Source: Echinicola pacifica DSM 19836 (GTDB lineage Bacteria; Bacteroidota; Bacteroidia; Cytophagales; Cyclobacteriaceae). Taken from it: a DNA stretch of 64,000 nucleotides. The notes under the pieces are model-generated. The model was not told where the DNA came from and made no database searches. It saw only the letters and a list, made by a program, of their open reading frames with translations. The position numbers and the translations under genes were made by a program. Shown here piece after piece: positions 51,732 to 62,505 of the stretch. The DNA lies in the NCBI RefSeq assembly GCF_000373245.1, contig NZ_KB890739.1:410441-474440 (forward strand), given 5' to 3'. Within the stretch, counting starts at the first letter, position 1. The number at the start of each line of letters is the position of its first letter.

Positions 51732-54700
51732 TCAGAGTTCTCCATTCATTAATGCTTGTAGCTTATGAGTAAAGGGCTCCACATAAGGGCTTTCAAACAT
51801 GCTGTTATGATCCCCTTCCACATCGATCACCTTGACATGGTTTACAAAGGGAGCCCAGCCATAATATTTCTCCTCTTTTATAGGAGTTAGTTTGATGCTT
51901 GCTTTGAATAATATGCAATCAATGGAAAGGGGGCTGAGTCTGTAATTTTCCAAAGAAGCAGTATTTATCGCTTTAATTTTCTTGATGATTTCAGCCCTGT
52001 CTTTAGGTTGTTCTTCCACCTTTTTAAGACCTATTTTTTGAAGTAGGTTTTCCATTTTGCGCTTGATCATCCTAGCCTTGGTGATCCGGAAGGTTTTTGG
52101 TGCTTTCCATAATAACTGCAATTCCACCTTGCGCTGCTCAATCTGGGCCGCGATAACATCCATCATACCTTTTTTTGGCACTAGCTCGTCGTCTTGGTCC
52201 ACATTTGTGTCGAAAATAATCAGGTTTTGCACCGTTTTTCCCCTTTGGATAAACTGCTTGGCCATCTCAAATGCCACATAGCCTCCAAATGAATATCCTC
52301 CTATCTGGTAGGGGCCTTCGGGGTTATGCTGGATTATTTCATTTACATAATGCTTAGCGATATTTTCAATTCCTATATTAGGTGAATCGATTCCGTTCAG
52401 CCCTTTAGCTTGTAAGCCGTATAGCGGCTGCTCTGCATCTACATAATCGATGAGCTTATAGTAGTTAGTGATATTAGCTGCCACTCCGTGGATGAGGTAT
52501 ATGGGGTTCTTTTTGCCCTGTGGTTTGATGGGGATCAGAGAGCTCCATTCCTGGCTAAGTTCCTCGGTGACATCCTCTCCATCGATGAGCGCACAAAAGT
52601 CCCTTAATATGGGGCTTTTAAATAGACTAGTTAATGGAAGCGTTTGGCCAAGTGCCTTGTCCAATTTGCTCATCACTGCAACCGCTAAAATGGAATGCCC
52701 TCCCAAGGAGAAAAAGTCATCGTCTAATTGAATATTATTGATTTTTAAGCCCTCTTGCCATATTTTAGCGACCATTTTTTGGGTTTCCGTCCACTCGTCT
52801 TTGCTTTGGGAGGAGCTGATATTAACTTTTTTAGATGGTTTGGGCAGGGCTTTTTTATCTATTTTCCCATTGGTATTGAGCGGAAAGTATTCCATTCCTA
52901 CCCAGTCTGTCGGAAGCATATATTCAGGTAGCTTACGCGAAAGTGCTGTTTTCCAACTGGAGATTTGCTCGGGGCTTATTTTTACCGTTTGAGGTAAGCT
53001 GTCTGAGGTCTCATTGTCCGTAAGCATGAGGACCTCATTTGGTATGATATAAGCGACGAGGGACTTAGAGCCGTTACTTTGGTCCAATACTCCCACATGG
53101 CCATTGCTTATCCCCGGGAGGGTGTTTAAGAGCAGCTCTATTTCACCAAGTTCTACTCGGTTTCCCCGAATCTTCACCTGATGATCGATTCTTCCAAGGC
53201 ATCTCAATTCCCCATTAGGCTTGAAAGCCCCCATATCGCCAGTTTTATAAAGACGTTTGCCAGGCAAGGAAGGGCTTTCAACAAAGGCCTCTTGGGTTTG
53301 TGCCGGATTGTTAAGGTATCCTATGGTTACCCCTTCGCCAGCAATATAAATTTCCCCTTGCTTACTAATAGGAAGCAGTCGCTTTTGAGGGTCAAGCAGG
53401 TATATTTCTGTATTTCCAATAGGCTGTCCAATAGAATCATAATCTTCCTCTGTTTCAAATAGTTTTGCAGTGGACAAGATCGTCGTTTCTGTAGGACCAT
53501 AAGCATTCCATACTTCCTTGCAGAGCCCCAAAAGTTGCTTTGCGAGGGGTTTTGAAAATGGCTCTCCGCCAGACATAATTTTGAGTGGCAAGGGACTATT
53601 CCATCCCACTTGGATCAACATCTGATAGGTGGCGGGAGTGGAAAATAATCGTGTGATCTGATGGTCCTTAAGTGCCTTAAGCAATAATCGGCCATCTTTA
53701 GCCATATCATGGTCAGCCATGATTACCGTGCCTCCTCCTATTAATAAACAAAATAGCTCAATCTGAGCGACATCAAAAGAGATGGAAGTGATACTCAGTA
53801 CCTTATCATCCGAATCGATCCTTAGCTTACGCCTCATATAATACAAGGTGTTGCAGAGGTTACGATGACTCACCAATACTCCTTTGGGAAGACCCGTGGA
53901 TCCGGAGGTATATAGGATATAGGCTGCAGCATCGGTATCCACCTTGACATTTGGCGTCGAAGCCTCCTTCTTGGTAGCTTCTTCCTGTAGCTTTGATACT
54001 TCCAGTAGTTGAAGATTACCTTCCAGACCTTCCTTTAAACTGCGACTTGTGATGACTGCCGCCGCCTGGGAGTCTTTTAAAATATGATTTACTCGCTCTG
54101 CTGGCAGCTGGCCATCCAATGGAATATAAGTGTTCCCAGATTTAGCTATGGCTAATAAGGCGATGACCATATCGGCGGAGCGTGGTAGGAAGACCCCGAT
54201 CCGAGATTGGTCTTTGAGGCCCTTGGAGAGGAGCAGGTTGGCGACTTGGTTTACCCGTCGATTCAGTGCTGAATAACTTAATTTTTGGGTTTTAAATTGT
54301 AAGGCTATTTGATCGGGGTATAAGTGAGCCACCTCTTCAAATAACTGTGTGATCGGGGTATTGACAGGGAAGTCGGTAAAGGTTTGATTGAATTTTTCGT
54401 ATTGATCCAGTAAGGGTTTTCTATCGATAATCTCTAGGGATCCCAGTGTTTTGCTCGGCTCGGCAATGAGCAGGTCCAATAGCTTCATATAGCTTGCCAT
54501 CATCCCTTCGATGGTTTCTGGCTTGAACAAATCGGTCTGATATCTCCATATGAACTGGAAATCATCCTTAGAATTCGTCAGGTTTAGCGTAAGCTCAAAG
54601 TTATCGTAAGCTCTTGGGTTGGAAATCAATTGGTACTCAATTCCATCAAAATTTAATTTAGCATCCATCCCCATGTCCAAGTTAAAAATAACCGGTACCA

Positions 54701-55799
54701 AGGTGGTTTTGCTAAGGTCTCTTTTTAGCCCTATGGTCTGGATCAATTCACTATAAGTAAATAGCTGATGATCATAGCAGTCAAGGATTTGCTGATTTCT
54801 TATTGCTAAATACTCATCAAAACCCAAGTCTTCCTGAATTTTGCTCTTTAAGGGTAACAGGTTTACACAATGGCCTACCAGATCAAAATTACCCGTCGCA
54901 GCCTGTCCAGCAGCAGGTACGCCGAGTATTATTTCTTTGCTGTCGCAATAGTTAGATAAGAATATCTCAAAGGTCGTAAGCAGGGTGTTGACCAGGGAGC
55001 TTTTGCTTTTTTGTCCCAGTTTTTTGATGGCGTCCAATTTAGCCTTAGGCACCTTGAAATCCATCCTTTTACATTTAAAGGACCTCTCCTCAGGACGTAC
55101 AAAGTCAGTCGGTAGAACCATTTCCTCCGAAAAATCAGCGTATAGGTTTTTCCAAAACGACTGTATTTCCTGCTGGGCGGGGGAAGATTTATGCTCCTCC
55201 AGCTGTTTAGCATATTCACTCAATTGATCGGCAGGAGCCTTCACTGAGGTTTTTTTCTGAACAATATTATTATAAATCCTGCCTAGGTCTTCCAGCAGCA
55301 CACCGATGGACCAGCCGTCTCCGATGATATGGTGAATGGTCAGGGTCAGCCGGTTTTTATCATCTGCAAGTTCGTGCAAATGAATACGGAACAAAGGCCC
55401 TTTTTCCAAGTTAAAGGCGATTAATGAATTGGCAAGGAGAAAATCAGATAGATGCTTTTCCTGCTCTTTTTCGCTCATCGCACGAAGATCCTCCTGCTGG
55501 AAAGGCAGGTTGATTTCGGTATGAATAAGTACCATTTTGCCATCGGCACTAAAAGAGGAGCGTAAGGCCTCATGGCGATCGACGATTTGTGTCATCGCAG
55601 CACGTATTGCCTCTGGTTTTAGCGGCCCCTCCAGCACGAGCGAAACAGACTCGTTATAAGATTTGTTCGCCTGCTCCCCACCGATCTTACATGCAAGCCA
55701 GATTTCCTGTTGGGATATTATCGTCGGAAATACTTTGTCCAGATGCCCATCCTTAAATGGATTAAAGTCGATAGGGATTAGTTTTAATGGGTTATTCAT
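51732..55799 (-). CDS. Nonribosomal peptide synthetase, C-A-PCP-TE
   Basis: A 1355-residue terminal NRPS module. Condensation domain (about 1-450) with HHIIGDG near 158. Adenylation domain (about 470-980) with LYTSGSTGLPKG near 631 and GRIDHQVKIRGNRVE near 875. Peptidyl carrier domain with FSLGGHSILAV (Ser near 1031). Type I thioesterase (about 1090-1355) with GYSFGG (Ser near 1171) and GDHNSM as the catalytic His. By eye, the adenylation code aligned to GrsA positions reads D-V-I-F-M-G-A-I-L plus Lys, which I cannot assign. It should add one amino acid to the intermediate from the upstream protein and release the product. It starts 4 bp after the upstream stop. Confidence 0.93.
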   Translation of the reverse strand: MNNPLKLIPIDFNPFKDGHLDKVFPTIISQQEIWLACKIGGEQANKSYNESVSLVLEGPLKPEAIRAAMTQIVDRHEALRSSFSADGKMVLIHTEINLPFQQEDLRAMSEKEQEKHLSDFLLANSLIAFNLEKGPLFRIHLHELADDKNRLTLTIHHIIGDGWSIGVLLEDLGRIYNNIVQKKTSVKAPADQLSEYAKQLEEHKSSPAQQEIQSFWKNLYADFSEEMVLPTDFVRPEERSFKCKRMDFKVPKAKLDAIKKLGQKSKSSLVNTLLTTFEIFLSNYCDSKEIILGVPAAGQAATGNFDLVGHCVNLLPLKSKIQEDLGFDEYLAIRNQQILDCYDHQLFTYSELIQTIGLKRDLSKTTLVPVIFNLDMGMDAKLNFDGIEYQLISNPRAYDNFELTLNLTNSKDDFQFIWRYQTDLFKPETIEGMMASYMKLLDLLIAEPSKTLGSLEIIDRKPLLDQYEKFNQTFTDFPVNTPITQLFEEVAHLYPDQIALQFKTQKLSYSALNRRVNQVANLLLSKGLKDQSRIGVFLPRSADMVIALLAIAKSGNTYIPLDGQLPAERVNHILKDSQAAAVITSRSLKEGLEGNLQLLEVSKLQEEATKKEASTPNVKVDTDAAAYILYTSGSTGLPKGVLVSHRNLCNTLYYMRRKLRIDSDDKVLSITSISFDVAQIELFCLLIGGGTVIMADHDMAKDGRLLLKALKDHQITRLFSTPATYQMLIQVGWNSPLPLKIMSGGEPFSKPLAKQLLGLCKEVWNAYGPTETTILSTAKLFETEEDYDSIGQPIGNTEIYLLDPQKRLLPISKQGEIYIAGEGVTIGYLNNPAQTQEAFVESPSLPGKRLYKTGDMGAFKPNGELRCLGRIDHQVKIRGNRVELGEIELLLNTLPGISNGHVGVLDQSNGSKSLVAYIIPNEVLMLTDNETSDSLPQTVKISPEQISSWKTALSRKLPEYMLPTDWVGMEYFPLNTNGKIDKKALPKPSKKVNISSSQSKDEWTETQKMVAKIWQEGLKINNIQLDDDFFSLGGHSILAVAVMSKLDKALGQTLPLTSLFKSPILRDFCALIDGEDVTEELSQEWSSLIPIKPQGKKNPIYLIHGVAANITNYYKLIDYVDAEQPLYGLQAKGLNGIDSPNIGIENIAKHYVNEIIQHNPEGPYQIGGYSFGGYVAFEMAKQFIQRGKTVQNLIIFDTNVDQDDELVPKKGMMDVIAAQIEQRKVELQLLWKAPKTFRITKARMIKRKMENLLQKIGLKKVEEQPKDRAEIIKKIKAINTASLENYRLSPLSIDCILFKASIKLTPIKEEKYYGWAPFVNHVKVIDVEGDHNSMFESPYVEPFTHKLQALMNGEL

Positions 55800-55803
55800 G
55801 ATT

Positions 55804-58800
55804 TTAGCTTAGGCTTTTTCCATAATCCAACTGAAGAAATTTACCCGGTCTTTTAGGGTCAGCAATAAACCATGCCAGCTCACCCTCGGGAGTTTTTCCT
55901 AATTGAGCTCCCGGAAGGGGAGGCTCAGCAGTGTTTACAGCTTCCATTTTAGGCCCATCATGGCCTGATCCTGAAAGCTTAAATTCTCCCCAAAATCCAG
56001 CTTCCACAATTTCCTTTATCCCTTCTTGGAGGACACGAATGATCGTGTCGATATCTTTTTCTTCATAAGCTGCTGTGGCAAAACAAGGGAAGCCATCATA
56101 GATATGAAGTCCTTTTTCTCTAAACAAGGTAAACAATAACTCTGTGAAAGGCAGCTCTTCATGGTATTTGATTTTCCAAAGAGAGCCAAAATTGGCAATA
56201 TATGCTGGAATATTGCTTTCGGTGAAGAACGAATTCATCTCGTCGGCTAACTTTTGAATATATTGGCCAAGCCTGATTTGAAGCTTTCCTTGGTCTTCTT
56301 TTAGGAATTTTAAGGACGCTTTTGCTGTGGCAAGTACCAGTGGATGACGTACAAAAGTGCCTGCAAAATAAGTCACCCCAATCTCAGGTACCGACTCATC
56401 TCCATATTGCCAAAATCCTCCATCCAGGGCATCCATGAAGTCTTTGCTACCAGCGATCACGCCAATAGGTAGTCCGCCGCCGACCACCTTACCATAGGTG
56501 GCGAGGTCAGCCTGAATTCCAAAGAGCCCCTGAGCGCCACGTGGGTGCATTCGGAAACCTGTAATTACCTCATCAAATATCAAGGCCGTTCCTGATTCCT
56601 TGGTGATCTGCCTTACCTTCTTCAAAAAGTCTATGGGTTGAAATTCTGGACGACGGCTTTGGACAGGCTCTACTAGCACTGCGGCGATTTCATCTTTTCG
56701 TTCTTCGATAATCCTCAAAGCCTCATCAGTGCCGTAATCCAATATCAGGATGTTTTCCACAGACTCGGCCATGATTCCGGCTGCAGCAGGGAATGATTTT
56801 AGGGATTTGGTTCCCCGAACGATTACCTCATCAAAGGTTCCATGGTAGGAGCCGTTAAAGGCTACCACAAGTGGGCGCTGGGTGATCGTCCTGGCGATTC
56901 TCAAAGCTCCCATCACCGCTTCTGAGCCAGTATTACAAAGCGCAGATCGCTCATGCCCTGTCAGCTCACATACCAGCTGACATACTTCCGCCGATAGCTC
57001 ATGCTGGGGGCCGATCTCGTAGCCTTTTTCGATTTGCTCTTTTAATGCCTCATTGATGAAATCTGGCCCATGGCCAAATAAAACGGATCCAAAGCCATTT
57101 AAAATATCTAAATACTCGTTTCCATCGATATCCCAGAGTTTGGTGCCTTTGGATTTGTTCACTACCAAAGAGTACACCGCTTCTTTGATGGCCGGGTTAA
57201 AGCCACTCACTACTCTTGGGTCGGCCATATGGCTTCGGTTTTCCTGAGTATAAGCCTTGCTCTTGGCGGTTTTACTGGTGTATTTTTTTATAAAATCACT
57301 GATAAACTCCTGCTGTTTTGCAGGTAAGGTTTGTTTGTTTTTATCGATTCGCGCCGTAGCTCCAAATGGTTTCTTGATGGCAGCCTCTTCGGCCGCGTCC
57401 ATCGGTGCAGGACTTGCCTTAACAGGACTAGCAACTGGTAGGGGCATAGGCGCAGCTGCTGTCGGGGAGGGTGTGCCGTTCGTGTGGCTAGGACTAGGAG
57501 CTCCTTGCTGCAAAAGTGCCAGTTGCTTGGATAAAATCTCCAGCTGCTGACCAATCAGGCCAATAGCAGAGTTGCTACCGTTTTGGCTAAAAGTCTGTAC
57601 AGAACCCATAGATGCGTAAGTAGCGCTAGCAGGCAAATGGTTTGAGGGGGCTAGCGCAGCTGCTTGAGTTACCTGCTGCGTTTGTACTGGAGCTGCAGGT
57701 CGATACTGGTCAGCAGGGAGCTGCTGATCCATATATCCCGCCAAATCCTGAATAGTATCATATTGGGAGGTCAGCTGTCTGAAGGTAACCTGGGTGCCAA
57801 ATTCCTTTTTGATAGTAAAGGAGAGCTGAGTCAACAAAAGTGAATCAAGCCCTAGCTCAGAAAAAGTAGCATCCAAGGGTGCATCATTTAATTCTAAACC
57901 TGAAGCTTCTTCTAAAATTTGCTTTACTTTTTCAATTAATGCGGGTAGTCTCATTAGAGTAGTAGTCTGTTGTGGTGTTGAGGGAGAATTTGAGGATTGA
58001 TTTTCTGCTTGCATGGAGGAGTTGTCGCGGTTTATGACCACGGGCTCGATCCAGCACCGCTGCCGGTCAAAGGCATAGGTAGGCAGTTTTAGCTTATTTC
58101 TGGATTGTCCTTTATAAAAGGAAGTTGGGTTGATCTCCACGCCGGCGGCATGTAACTGTCCTAAGCTATCCAACAGTTGCTTATATTCATGATCGTCCTG
58201 GCGTCTTTCCATGCTGCAGACGGTGGGTATTCCTTTGGCTTCGGGATGCTGTTTTGTAAGCGAGGAGAGTACATTTCCAGGTCCCACTTCCACCAAGGCC
58301 GTGCCTGGGGAATCATCCAAAAGAGCCGCAATTGCAGGGCTGAACTTGACCGTTGCGCGTAAGTGATTGGTCCAATAATCTGCTGAAGTGGCCTCCTCAA
58401 TTTTTAATTCTCTACCGCTGACGGTGCTGAATATTCTAATTTTGGGGGCTGAAAGTGTCGCCTTAAGCACTTCCTTGCGGAAGTCCTCCAGGACTGGATC
58501 CATCATCGCGGAATGAAAAGCATGGCTGGTAAACAGTTTTTTGTTTAATATCCCTTGCTGGTCTAGAAGTGAAATGAATTTCTGAATCTCCTCCTCAGGA
58601 CCCGCCACCACGCAGAGTTTTGGGGAATTGATAGCTGCCATAGATAGATTGGCAGGTAGGATCTTAGTTATTTCTTCGTGGTTTGCTCGTACTGACAGCA
58701 TATCGCCTGTAGGCAGTTTTGCTACCAGTTTGCCGCGAACTGCCACCAATCTTACCACGTCTTCCAAGGTAAATACTCCTGCCAAATGGGCGGCGACAAA

Positions 58801-61800
58801 TTCCCCAATGCTGTGTCCACAAAGGATATCAGGCTCATAGCCCCAGGAAATCCACTGCTTAGCCAGAGCGTATTCCATCGCAAAGATGGCCGGCTGGGTG
58901 TATTGGGTGTCTCTCAGCTGATCTTCTGCCACCGAATCTTCGATGTCAGGATAGATGATCTCTAATAGAGACTTGCCGATTAATGGCTCGAATAAGGCAC
59001 TGCAATGATCTAAGGCTTCCCTAAATATTGGCGCAGCATCATAAAGCTGTCTTCCCATATTAAGATATTGAGCCCCTTGGCCGGGGAAGAGGAAGCTTAG
59101 TTTATTCGATACGGTAGATAGTTTTTGCAAAGGTAAACCATGTGAAATAGCTCGCTCTAATTGGCGTACCAGATCCATTTGGTTTTGGAATACTAAATGA
59201 CTCTTTAGGGAATAATTTCCCACCTTTATATGATTGGAATAGCTGAGATCATCCAAATTGAGGGAAGGTGATTCCTTCAAAAATCTAAGTAGCTTTCGGT
59301 AATATAATTTGATACTGTTCTCAGTTTTGGCCTGGAAGGCCAATAAATGAAAAGGAGCAGTGCTGGCGTCGGAGGTCTGCTCGCTCTTGCTGACTTCCTC
59401 CAGGATAATGTGGACGTTGGTCCCACCGATGCCGAAGGAACTTACACCTGCTCGCAAGGGGAAGTCAGCCTTCCAAGGGCTACCCTTCTTTTGGATATAA
59501 AAAGGAGAGTCCGCCAGGTCTAATAATGGATTTGCAGAAGTAAATCCAATTGTGGAAGGAAGGTATTTATGCTGAATAGATAACACGGTCTTGATCAGCC
59601 CGACGATGCCGGAAGCGGCGGTAAGGTGACCCAAATTGCTTTTTACAGAGCCTACTGCGCAGTAATTGGTTTTCTCCTGAGGACCAAAAGCGATCTTTAA
59701 GCCTTCCATTTCTATAGGGTCTCCCACCGGCGTGCCAGTGCCATGTGCCTCAATATAGCTGATGGTGGCCGCAGAGATGTCAGCATCCTCGATGGCTGTA
59801 AGGACGGCACCTGCCTGTCCTTCCGCACTAGGGGCAGAGAATGAGCTCTTTTGGGCGCCGTCATTATTGACGCCTATTCCTGTGATGGTGGCAAGGATAT
59901 CATCTCCATCCTGAATAGCCAGGTCATAGTTCTTAAGCATGATGGCGCCTGCACCATCGCTGAATACCGTCCCAGAAGCCTGCTCGTCAAAAGGCTGACA
60001 ATGCCCATCCTTACTGAAAATAGCGCCTTCTTGGTAAAGATGACCAGCATGGATGGGAGAAGAAACGGTGGCTCCCCCAGCAATAGCCATATCACACTGT
60101 CCCGTACGAATGTACTGTACCGCTTGGGCCACGGCTAGCAAGGACGTGGAGCAGGCAGAATGTACACTCACCGCTGGGCCATTAAGGTCAAAATGATAGG
60201 CCGTACGCGTGGTGACATAATCTTTTTCATTAAGAGCCATGACATTTAGCTCTCCATGCCGATCCATCAATTGCTGATTGGGAAGGAGGTTTTTCTGGAA
60301 ATAGGTATTGTTATTGGTTCCTCCAAATACCCCTATTTTATAATCATCAGCAGTGTATTTATGCTGCGTTTTTTCTAATAATTCCCATGAAAGCTCCAGA
60401 AAGATTCTTTGCTGGGGATCCATCAATGAGGCTTGGATTGGGTTGATCCCGAAGAATGCTGGGTCAAAATCCGTAGCATTTTCGAGTATTCCACGAGCCT
60501 TAATATAGTTGGGGTCACGAAGCTTTTCTTCAGAGACCATAGGGTCGATCTCTTCCTCGCTGAAGAAACGGATCGATTCCTTTTCTTCCACCAGATTTTG
60601 CCAGAAGCTAGCAATATCCTCCGCTCCTGGGAATCGGCCGGACATCGCGATGATAGCCACCTTTTTACCTGATTTCTGCGGTTTTGCTTTGTGAGATTTT
60701 TTTGATTTTTTACCAGTATTGCTGATGAGCTGGGCTATTCCAGCGACACTTGGCTTATGGTATATTTTGGTGACCGGTACCTCTTTGCCTAGCTGATCTT
60801 TGATTTCTATAGATAAGCGCTGCGCCAAGAGGGAGTTTCCTCCCAAGTCAAAGAAATTATCAGAAGTACTTACTTGATCATAATGCAGGATCTTGCTGAA
60901 TATCTTGCAGAGAGAAGCTTCCAATTCACCCAATGGCCATACCACCGGGCTGTTGATGTTTTCTCTTTTGTTGACAGGATTGGGCAGGGCCTTACGGTCA
61001 ATTTTGCCACTGATGGTCCTTGGGAATTCCCGTACCTTAAAGAATATGGAGGGGACCATATATTCAGGTAGGAGATTAGCCAAATAGCCACTTAGGGCTT
61101 GTGAAGATAGTTTTGAGCTACCAGAACTGTAGTAAGCCGCCAGGTATTTTTGGCCGTCCTCATATTCACGGGCAGTTACTGCCACTTGCTCTATTTCCGG
61201 ATGGCGAGCCAGGACGGTCTCGATCTCCCCTGGTTCGATGCGATGCCCACGGATTTTTACCTGATCGTCTTTTCTTCCCAAGAAGATGACTTCCTGGCTA
61301 TCCTTGATCTTCACCAAATCACCTGTGAGATATACTCGAAGGCTGTTTTTGTCGCCATCGACGATAGAGATAAACTTAGACTCCGTAAGCTCTGGCTTAT
61401 TGAAATAGCCATCGGCTAAGCAAATCCCACCTATCGCCAGTTCTCCTTCCTGGCCATTGGCTAGAGGTTGATGGTTTGCATCCAAAGCCCACAGCCTTAC
61501 GCCATCGATTGGGAAACCGATGGAGGGAAGTTCCGGCCATTGTGCCAGATCTTTTGGCGCCAAGGTTAGTTGAGATACCACATGGGTTTCCGTGGGACCA
61601 TATTGGTTCTGAAGGGTACACTGATTTAATTCTCCGAAAAAGCGACGCACTTTTTCGGTAACTTTAAGCTGTTCTCCAGCCGTAATTACTTCCTTTAGAG
61701 ATTGGGGATAGACGCCATGAGCCACTGCCGTATTGGCAAGAGACTGGAGGCTCACAAATGGCAAAAATAACCTTTCGATCTGTTGTTTATCCAATAGACG

Positions 61801-62505
61801 CAAGAGCGCTAAGGGGTCTTTTACAGTATCCTCATCGATCAATACCAGACATCCGCCCGTACTTAGCGTGGCAAATATCTCCTGAAAAGATACGTCAAAA
61901 GTAAATTTGGAAAACTGTATGGTTCTGGCCGGAGAAGGAGATTGGGCGACCTTCTTTTGCCATAGAAGGAGGTTTACCAATGGCTGATGAGCCATCTTTA
62001 CCCCTTTAGGCTCTCCAGTACTTCCGGAGGTGAATAAGACATACGCAGGATGCTCAGGAAGGATTTTTACCTGCGGAGCTAGGATGCTATTCCCTTCTTT
62101 TAGCTGATCCTGAATGATAAATGCGCTCGCTAAAGTAGAGGCTTCGGAGGAGGTGGCTAAGGTGTAAAGTGCCAACTTGCTTTGGCAAGCGGCAATAATA
62201 TGATTCTTCCGCTCCTCCGGGAATTCTGGAGCCACAGGTACATAGCCCGCACCGCATTTCAGAATAGCAAGGATACCAATAATCATTTCTATGGAGCGCT
62301 CTGCACAGATGGGCACCGTATCCCCTGGCTTGATTCCTTGAAGGACCAGCTGGTTTGCCAGGAGATTACTCCGGTCTGCTAGTTGCTGGTAAGTCAAAAA
62401 AGTCTGGTCATGCTGTAAAGCGACCTCTTGGGCATGAAAGCTTAAACTTTCATTGACCAAATCTATAATGGTTCTTTTATTTCGTTGCTCTGTTGTAGTA
62501 ATCAT
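55804..62505 (-). CDS. Hybrid NRPS-PKS with aminotransferase: A-PCP-KS-AT-ACP-AMT
   Basis: A 2233-residue assembly-line protein. Adenylation (about 1-510; [12 protein letters not shown] near 158, [15 protein letters not shown] near 410); peptidyl carrier ([10 protein letters not shown], Ser near 556); ketosynthase (613-1040; active Cys in HSACSTSL near 782, [11 protein letters not shown] near 920, [10 protein letters not shown] near 957); acyltransferase (1138-1430; GHSIGEF near 1230, HAFH near 1327, the malonyl-type signature); acyl carrier ([10 protein letters not shown] near 1549); an Ala/Pro/Gln-rich linker (1600-1740); class III PLP aminotransferase (1745-2175; [23 protein letters not shown] Lys in TYGKVVGGG near 2003). 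No ketoreductase, dehydratase or methyltransferase is visible. The C-terminal tail [18 protein letters not shown] resembles the linker usually seen before a C domain, which here begins the next protein. The predicted step is amination of a beta-keto thioester. Confidence 0.93.

Follow-up and report, generated by a model that had tools for sequence, protein, structure and literature searches.

A two-protein NRPS-PKS-aminotransferase line in Echinicola pacifica predicted to make a beta-aminated pseudo-dipeptide

We analysed a 64,000-nt window of Echinicola pacifica DSM 19836 (contig NZ_KB890739.1, forward-strand positions 410,441-474,440), and all coordinates below are positions in this window. 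An earlier note on this DNA described two adjacent minus-strand synthetase genes 4 bp apart, and both open reading frames were recovered (Table 1), with the stop codon of the first gene (P0001) at 55804-55806 and the start of the second (P0002) at 55799, leaving 4 bases between them. The two frames run uninterrupted for 6.7 and 4.1 kb and the pair recurs in other genomes, which excludes a chance occurrence. Pfam detected AMP-binding, two PP-binding, ketosynthase (N and C), acyltransferase and class-III aminotransferase domains in P0001 and Condensation, AMP-binding, PP-binding and Thioesterase domains in P0002, which reproduced the order A-PCP-KS-AT-ACP-AMT then C-A-PCP-TE given in that note. 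As the note had also held, neither protein contained a ketoreductase, dehydratase, ER or methyltransferase domain by Pfam at E 0.001. A hidden reductase had been named as a possible refutation and was looked for. Residue 1457 is the last of the AT and residue 1525 the first of the ACP; the gap of 67 residues between them and the ACP-AMT linker of 133 residues are too short to hold a ketoreductase, so that a hidden ketoreductase in P0001 was ruled out.

Table 1. Features of the two-gene line and the adjacent phosphopantetheinyl transferase gene (window coordinates)
Feature	Coordinates	Strand	Evidence
Synthetase 1, P0001, 2233 aa, A-PCP-KS-AT-ACP-AMT	55804..62505	-	ORF, Pfam
A1, loading adenylation domain, code DVQ(F/L)IAQVVK, proline-like	61003..62436	-	Pfam, TIGR01733 375.7 bits (cut-off 317.4), pocket matches
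PCP1 (GGNSLL)	60715..60909	-	Pfam, motif
Ketosynthase, KS	59392..60666	-	Pfam, motifs
Acyltransferase, AT (GHSIGE, HAFH)	58135..59094	-	Pfam, motifs
ACP (GLDSLL)	57733..57933	-	Pfam, motif
AMT, class III, MycA-like, PLP Lys in TYGKVVGGG	55996..57333	-	Pfam, alignment to MycA
C-terminal tail, residues 2183-2233, motif [20 protein letters not shown]	55807..55959	-	alignment
Synthetase 2, P0002, 1355 aa, C-A-PCP-TE	51732..55799	-	ORF, Pfam
Condensation domain (HHIIGDG)	54423..55715	-	Pfam, motif
A2, adenylation domain, code ~DVIFMGAILK	52845..54341	-	Pfam, alignments
PCP2 (GGHSIL)	52584..52772	-	Pfam, motif
Type I thioesterase, TE (GYSFG, GDHNSM)	51750..52505	-	Pfam, motifs
4'-phosphopantetheinyl transferase (PPTase), P0003	50102..50881	-	Pfam ACPS

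The KS motifs (SACSTS, EAHGTGT and KSNLGH) and both AT motifs were intact, and the serines of all three carrier motifs were present. The AMT lysine lies in [24 protein letters not shown], and the motif check also found the GDHNSM motif. The HAFH motif of the AT is of the malonyl type. The C-terminal tail of P0001, which is also kept in three relatives that lack the AMT, is probably a docking element.

Among solved structures the AMT matched MycA of mycosubtilin best (6kfm, E 1.6e-117), and the next group, the glutamate-1-semialdehyde aminomutases (GSAM), followed at 6e-51 or weaker. The catalytic PLP lysine was aligned between the two proteins (TYGKVVGGG in the AMT and TYGKIIGGG in MycA), and K306 was invariant in an 8-row alignment. 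This agrees with the comparison to MycA/ItuA drawn in the note, and a class-III (GSAM-like) aminotransferase after KS-AT-ACP is the arrangement of MycA/McyE-type modules. According to a passage of PMC3870968, a MycA-type AMT aminates the beta-keto thioester on the ACP. The stretch from the ACP-AMT linker through the AMT to the tail was 63-74% identical in seven relatives. In five congeners the AMT alone reached 76-80% identity, compared with 52-58% for A1, and it is the best conserved part of P0001. AlphaFold modelling from 8 sequences reached a mean pLDDT of only 61 for the AMT, too poor to add anything on this domain.

We investigated the substrate pocket of the loading domain. A1 passed the amino-acid adenylation model TIGR01733, and its pocket was matched best by gramicidin S synthase 2 (8p5o, 7e-26), followed by tyrocidine synthase 2 (9bfd, 3e-22), both of which we take to be proline-activating, and by an L-prolyl carrier ligase (7thn, 5e-11). 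The proline pocket code is DVQLIAHVVK. In its own alignment A1 reads DVQFIAQVVK, with F as the fourth letter (position 278) and Gln in place of His at 322. The letter at 278 depends on the register: in that of the 8p5o alignment it is L, and Gln322 is then the single departure from the proline code. A1 also has Val236 and Gln239, which proline codes mostly share (n = 59 of 71 domains, in a section of PMC12283262). These results suggest that the starter pocket is proline-like, so that the C4 nitrogen of the product would probably be the pyrrolidine nitrogen. They support the prediction in the note of an amino-acid starter loaded by an adenylation domain and narrow it to a proline-like residue. 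A fatty-acid or aryl starter was ruled out by the TIGR01733 match and the proline-enzyme pocket matches.

The code of A2 has a fourth letter that depends on the register. Its nearest sequences were those of the congeners, followed by domains of the DI.Q type, which are mostly Gly-like and from which A2 differs in its pocket residues. Residues 124-1336 of P0002 aligned with 4zxh, which we take to be the AB3403-type C-A-PCP-TE termination module and which was also the best match of the A2 pocket, although the pocket residues are altered in A2. A2 thus appears related to Gly-type pockets but altered, and its substrate is probably a hydrophobic residue. The glycine code given in PMC12283262 is DILQLGMIWK, and the part of that paper covered held no code close to that of A2. 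The exact A1 and A2 codes had no match in the literature searched, a search of low power because common codes, including a common proline code, were also not found.

From these assignments a route can be proposed. A1 would activate L-proline or a close analogue and load it onto PCP1, and the KS would extend the prolyl unit by a single malonyl group that the AT selects, to give a 4-amino-3-keto thioester on the ACP. The MycA-like AMT would then transaminate C3. The resulting 3,4-diamino acid, 3-amino-3-(pyrrolidin-2-yl)propanoyl-ACP, would be coupled by the C domain to one residue, probably hydrophobic, held on A2-PCP of P0002, and the TE would release the product as a linear compound or a small lactam. 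The adjacent PPTase could prime the carriers. Support for this route comes from the Pfam order, the lack of other processing domains, the proline-enzyme pocket matches of A1, the MycA match of the AMT and the conservation of the line in relatives. Against it stand the Gln at 322, where the gramicidin S and tyrocidine synthase 2 pockets have His, the register-dependent residue 278, and the cyclisation of prolyl-beta-keto thioesters, which could compete with amination. Substrates, amination and release mode are read here from sequence, and we consider it likely that the line joins proline and one malonate, aminates the beta carbon, adds one further residue and releases the product by the TE. The logic set out in the note (amino-acid starter, malonate, beta-transamination, further residue, release) fits the domains found, and nothing contradictory was encountered.

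The line was then followed through the 11 genomes of the genus that were searched, the window's included. Seven carried it at one chromosomal site, six in full (G000, G003, G004, G005, G007 and G010, the last with its first ORF split near the start as read here) and one without the AMT (G006), and four lacked it (G001, G002, G008 and G009). In the line-bearing congeners an oligopeptidase gene adjoins the line, and in all four line-less genomes (L235-L238, for G001, G008, G009 and G002, respectively) the site was empty, with the PPTase gene directly beside the oligopeptidase gene. G002 has two unrelated genes between those for MetRS and the PPTase. The PPTase P0003, which the note had left out, matched Pfam ACPS above its cut-off and is HetI-like, below the NCBIfam cut-off. 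Its gene was found in all 11 genomes, with or without the line, and therefore belongs to the site and not to the line; a PPTase dedicated to the line was ruled out.

In G006 the order is the same, with the AMT missing between the ACP and the kept C-terminal tail (L041 8353-13605), and the first proteins of two genomes of other genera, G028 (L042 12035-16975) and G036 (L043 9069-14309), likewise end after the ACP with the same tail. The best AMT-like matches elsewhere in G006, G028 and G036 scored 201, 193 and 182 bits, respectively, versus 1059 for the window AMT. The absence of the AMT beside a kept tail indicates that the AMT is a gain-or-loss cassette, and these three relatives argue against beta-amination as a fixed, obligatory step of such lines. 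They also raise the alternative that the window AMT is inactive or skipped, in which case the product would be a beta-keto amide or a prolyl tetramic acid. With the PLP lysine and its neighbours intact and the AMT better conserved than A1 among the congeners, we regard this alternative as very unlikely.

Two further arrangements were seen around the line in the genus. A two-gene pair encoding proteins of ~500 and 240 aa, which on visual inspection look like an ABC permease and an ATPase, is divergent from the line in G003, G004, G005 and G010 (15947-18183 of L035 and the equivalent position of L036, L037 and L038) and is not in the window; one 503-aa member had no NCBIfam match. In G007 and G006 the line adjoins a stand-alone protein with one A domain, a carrier and TE motifs, and such a protein is also encoded on another contig of the window's genome (L034 4862-7522, L041 13786-16473 and L044 5810-8578).

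To survey the wider family, genome contigs were searched with a profile of the AMT alignment, which gave at least 514 relatives among at least 598 pattern matches, and the best 80 were kept. The full first protein was present in 76 of these best 80, and 63 of the 76 had the exact whole order, with a following C-A-T-TE protein in 60 and a fusion to C-A-T-TE in 3; the other 13 had longer or different second proteins. The four incomplete loci (L076, L092, L108 and L110) lay on short contigs, were cut by a contig end or had a broken frame. The best 80 include lines of Pedobacter, Mucilaginibacter, Spirosoma, Larkinella, Flavobacterium, Maribacter and two Lysobacteraceae; for the latter two a cephabacin-like origin was considered. 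When the phylum was sampled evenly, matches at E 1e-150 or better came from 15 of 395 genomes, one of them that of the window, and the weakest two (G291 and G309) were more distant. Identity to the window among the named loci of the best 80 was 32-52% for A1 (median 43), 50-60% for the KS (57), 39-58% for the AT (51) and 50-68% for the AMT (64). In the AMT tree, a quick tree with several long branches and many weak forks, the window clade grouped with Cognataquiflexum and G011 (SH-aLRT 99), which suggests Cyclobacteriaceae.

The loading domain varied in type. Among the best 80, A1 codes were proline-like by pattern in 44 of 76, and the others resembled what we take to be Ser, Asp/Asn and Val codes. 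On the AMT tree (82 scored rows) A1 switched between the proline and the non-proline state at least 16 times, which indicates a conserved chassis with exchanged loading domains. This variety in sister lines, together with the Gln at 322 of A1, could mean that the window A1 loads a non-proline starter such as pipecolate, a substituted proline or another amino acid, with a product that differs at the starter. The three best solved pocket matches are proline enzymes, and we consider a non-proline starter unlikely. Of 78 first A domains in the second proteins of the best 80, 57 fitted a loosely defined Gly-like pattern (DI.Q plus W or Y at 331). The window A2 lies outside this pattern, so that a Gly-like A2 is usual and not obligatory in the family. 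Other variants were also seen: a Cupin_8/JmjC-like protein, possibly a hydroxylase, is encoded between the two synthetase genes at L098 (11572-12450, by domain scan) and at L099 (11573-12484) and L121 (11567-12460), the latter two by clustering, and Parapedobacter soli (L060) carries a tandem pair of A-T-KS-AT-T-AMT genes with C-T-C after it, the second AMT being on a very long branch.

We compared the line with known systems. MycA (6kfm, 6kfr and 6kfu), the beta-keto-aminating AMT of mycosubtilin/iturin synthesis, belongs to a long lipopeptide line with a fatty-acid starter, whereas the window line begins with a loading domain for an amino acid and would add only one more residue. The fatty-acid (FAAL-type) starter domain of the iturin family is replaced by a domain that passes TIGR01733 and has a proline-like pocket, and in place of its downstream multi-module NRPS stands one C-A-PCP-TE module. 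McyE, of the microcystin type, shares beta-amination by an AMT after KS-AT-ACP with P0001 but differs in its polyketide intermediate and fused NRPS module. The proline A domains of GrsB and TycB, the best pocket matches of A1, differ from it by His322 to Gln, and in contrast to them A1 is a loading domain feeding a KS. The window line is therefore a known MycA/McyE module type in an amino-acid-primed variant, and the order of its first protein has already been tabulated. In Table 2 of Milano et al. 2013 (PMC3870968), C6XWU5 of Pedobacter heparinus has the order A-CP-KS-AT-CP-PLP1 and the predicted product Nrp-Mal-Gly-Pk; the entry was compiled from annotation and gives no product as characterised. 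By this entry, C6XWU5 resembles P0001 in domain order and class-III aminotransferase and differs from the window line in the predicted Gly, where the latter has a non-Gly second pocket. The window line has exactly this first-protein order followed by C-A-T-TE, as in such lines of Bacteroidota. In the literature text searched, the domain order was found only in PMC3870968 and a microcystin review, the microcystin AMT being named in a passage of PMC13291983, and the portions covered of surveys of Bacteroidota and Pedobacter clusters counted hybrids and did not describe the line. In keeping with the note, no characterised product of such a line was found in the open-licence literature searched. 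Rarity is the weak point of the earlier reading: the first-protein order stands in the 2013 table and many Bacteroidota carry the whole order, which rules out a unique architecture. Overall, the complete and conserved two-protein hybrid line would probably make a beta-aminated pseudo-dipeptide.

The surroundings of the relatives were examined for associated genes. Glycosyltransferases, flippases and export proteins were in strong excess around the lines of many relatives among L046-L119 (e.g., L048, L067, L081 and L104). At 39 named loci with matched controls (same-contig regions ~100 kb away, 211 of 269 control proteins scanned), Glycos_transf_2 (PF00535) was found in 39 of 212 flanking proteins (15/87 and 24/125), compared with 3/100 and at most 1/111 control proteins, together at most 4/211. 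The bound for the second control set reflects that PF00535 was not among the 25 families listed, of which the lowest count was 1. Group-1 glycosyltransferases (PF00534) differed less (3/87 and 7/125 in flanks versus 4/100 and at most 1/111 in controls). Six home-made glycan HMMs, which are biased because they were trained on case loci, matched 82 of 500 flank proteins versus 5 of 366 random controls and 1 of 226 proteins around ten NRPS/PKS loci without an AMT, and 25 of 39 loci had a match versus 3 of 39 controls. Counted over the 72 tree rows whose loci are at least 18 kb long, the glycan label changed at least 14 times on the AMT tree. In the even phylum sample, 8 of 13 loci opened (G309 left out, and some the same as loci of the named set) showed a glycan match within the 14-40 kb fetched. 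Of 50 plasmid-borne AMT relatives, 11 hand-picked ones were opened, two of them without annotation. The annotation places the lines of Variovorax paradoxus VAI-C (synthetases A-T-KS-AT-T-AMT and C-A-T-C-T), Aliiroseovarius, Loktanella, Rhodobacter and two Rhizobium within polysaccharide loci, and Variovorax WDL1 has one glycosyltransferase near its line. A separate condensation-domain protein follows four alphaproteobacterial AMT lines (L187, L190, L191 and L234).

On one reading of these data the pseudo-dipeptide would not be released free but would be moved, as an acyl group, onto a surface-polysaccharide sugar, with the TE, or the terminal C domain in proteobacterial relatives, acting as the acyltransferase. 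None of the six glycan families was found at the window, L002 or six congener loci in the stretches examined; among the best 80 of at least 514 relatives, 40 loci had no glycan match and only 16 had a same-strand glycan gene within 2-3 genes; and the annotations of Spirosoma linguale and Variovorax RA8 show no glycan genes. The loci are, moreover, related to each other, and the HMMs share families with the cases. Transfer to a glycan is a tentative reading that we hold to be rather improbable, and for the window copy the case for glycan decoration is weak. A broader reading, which seems a little more doubtful still, is that a KS-AT-ACP-AMT chassis with interchangeable loading A domains supplies vicinal-diamine pseudo-peptides that are put on surface polysaccharides in many Bacteroidota and some Proteobacteria, and that the window line is an offshoot which moved away from the glycan locus, took up a different second residue and makes a free product.

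Amino-acid-primed beta-amination, as predicted for the window line, would lead in few enzymatic steps to 3,4-diamino acids, such as aminostatine- or dolaproine-like units. The natural swaps of the loading domain and a deletion of the AMT that seems already to have been made offer a compact system for tests of assembly-line engineering. If the link to polysaccharides is real, a large, so far unassigned group of hybrid clusters in Bacteroidota would gain a function.
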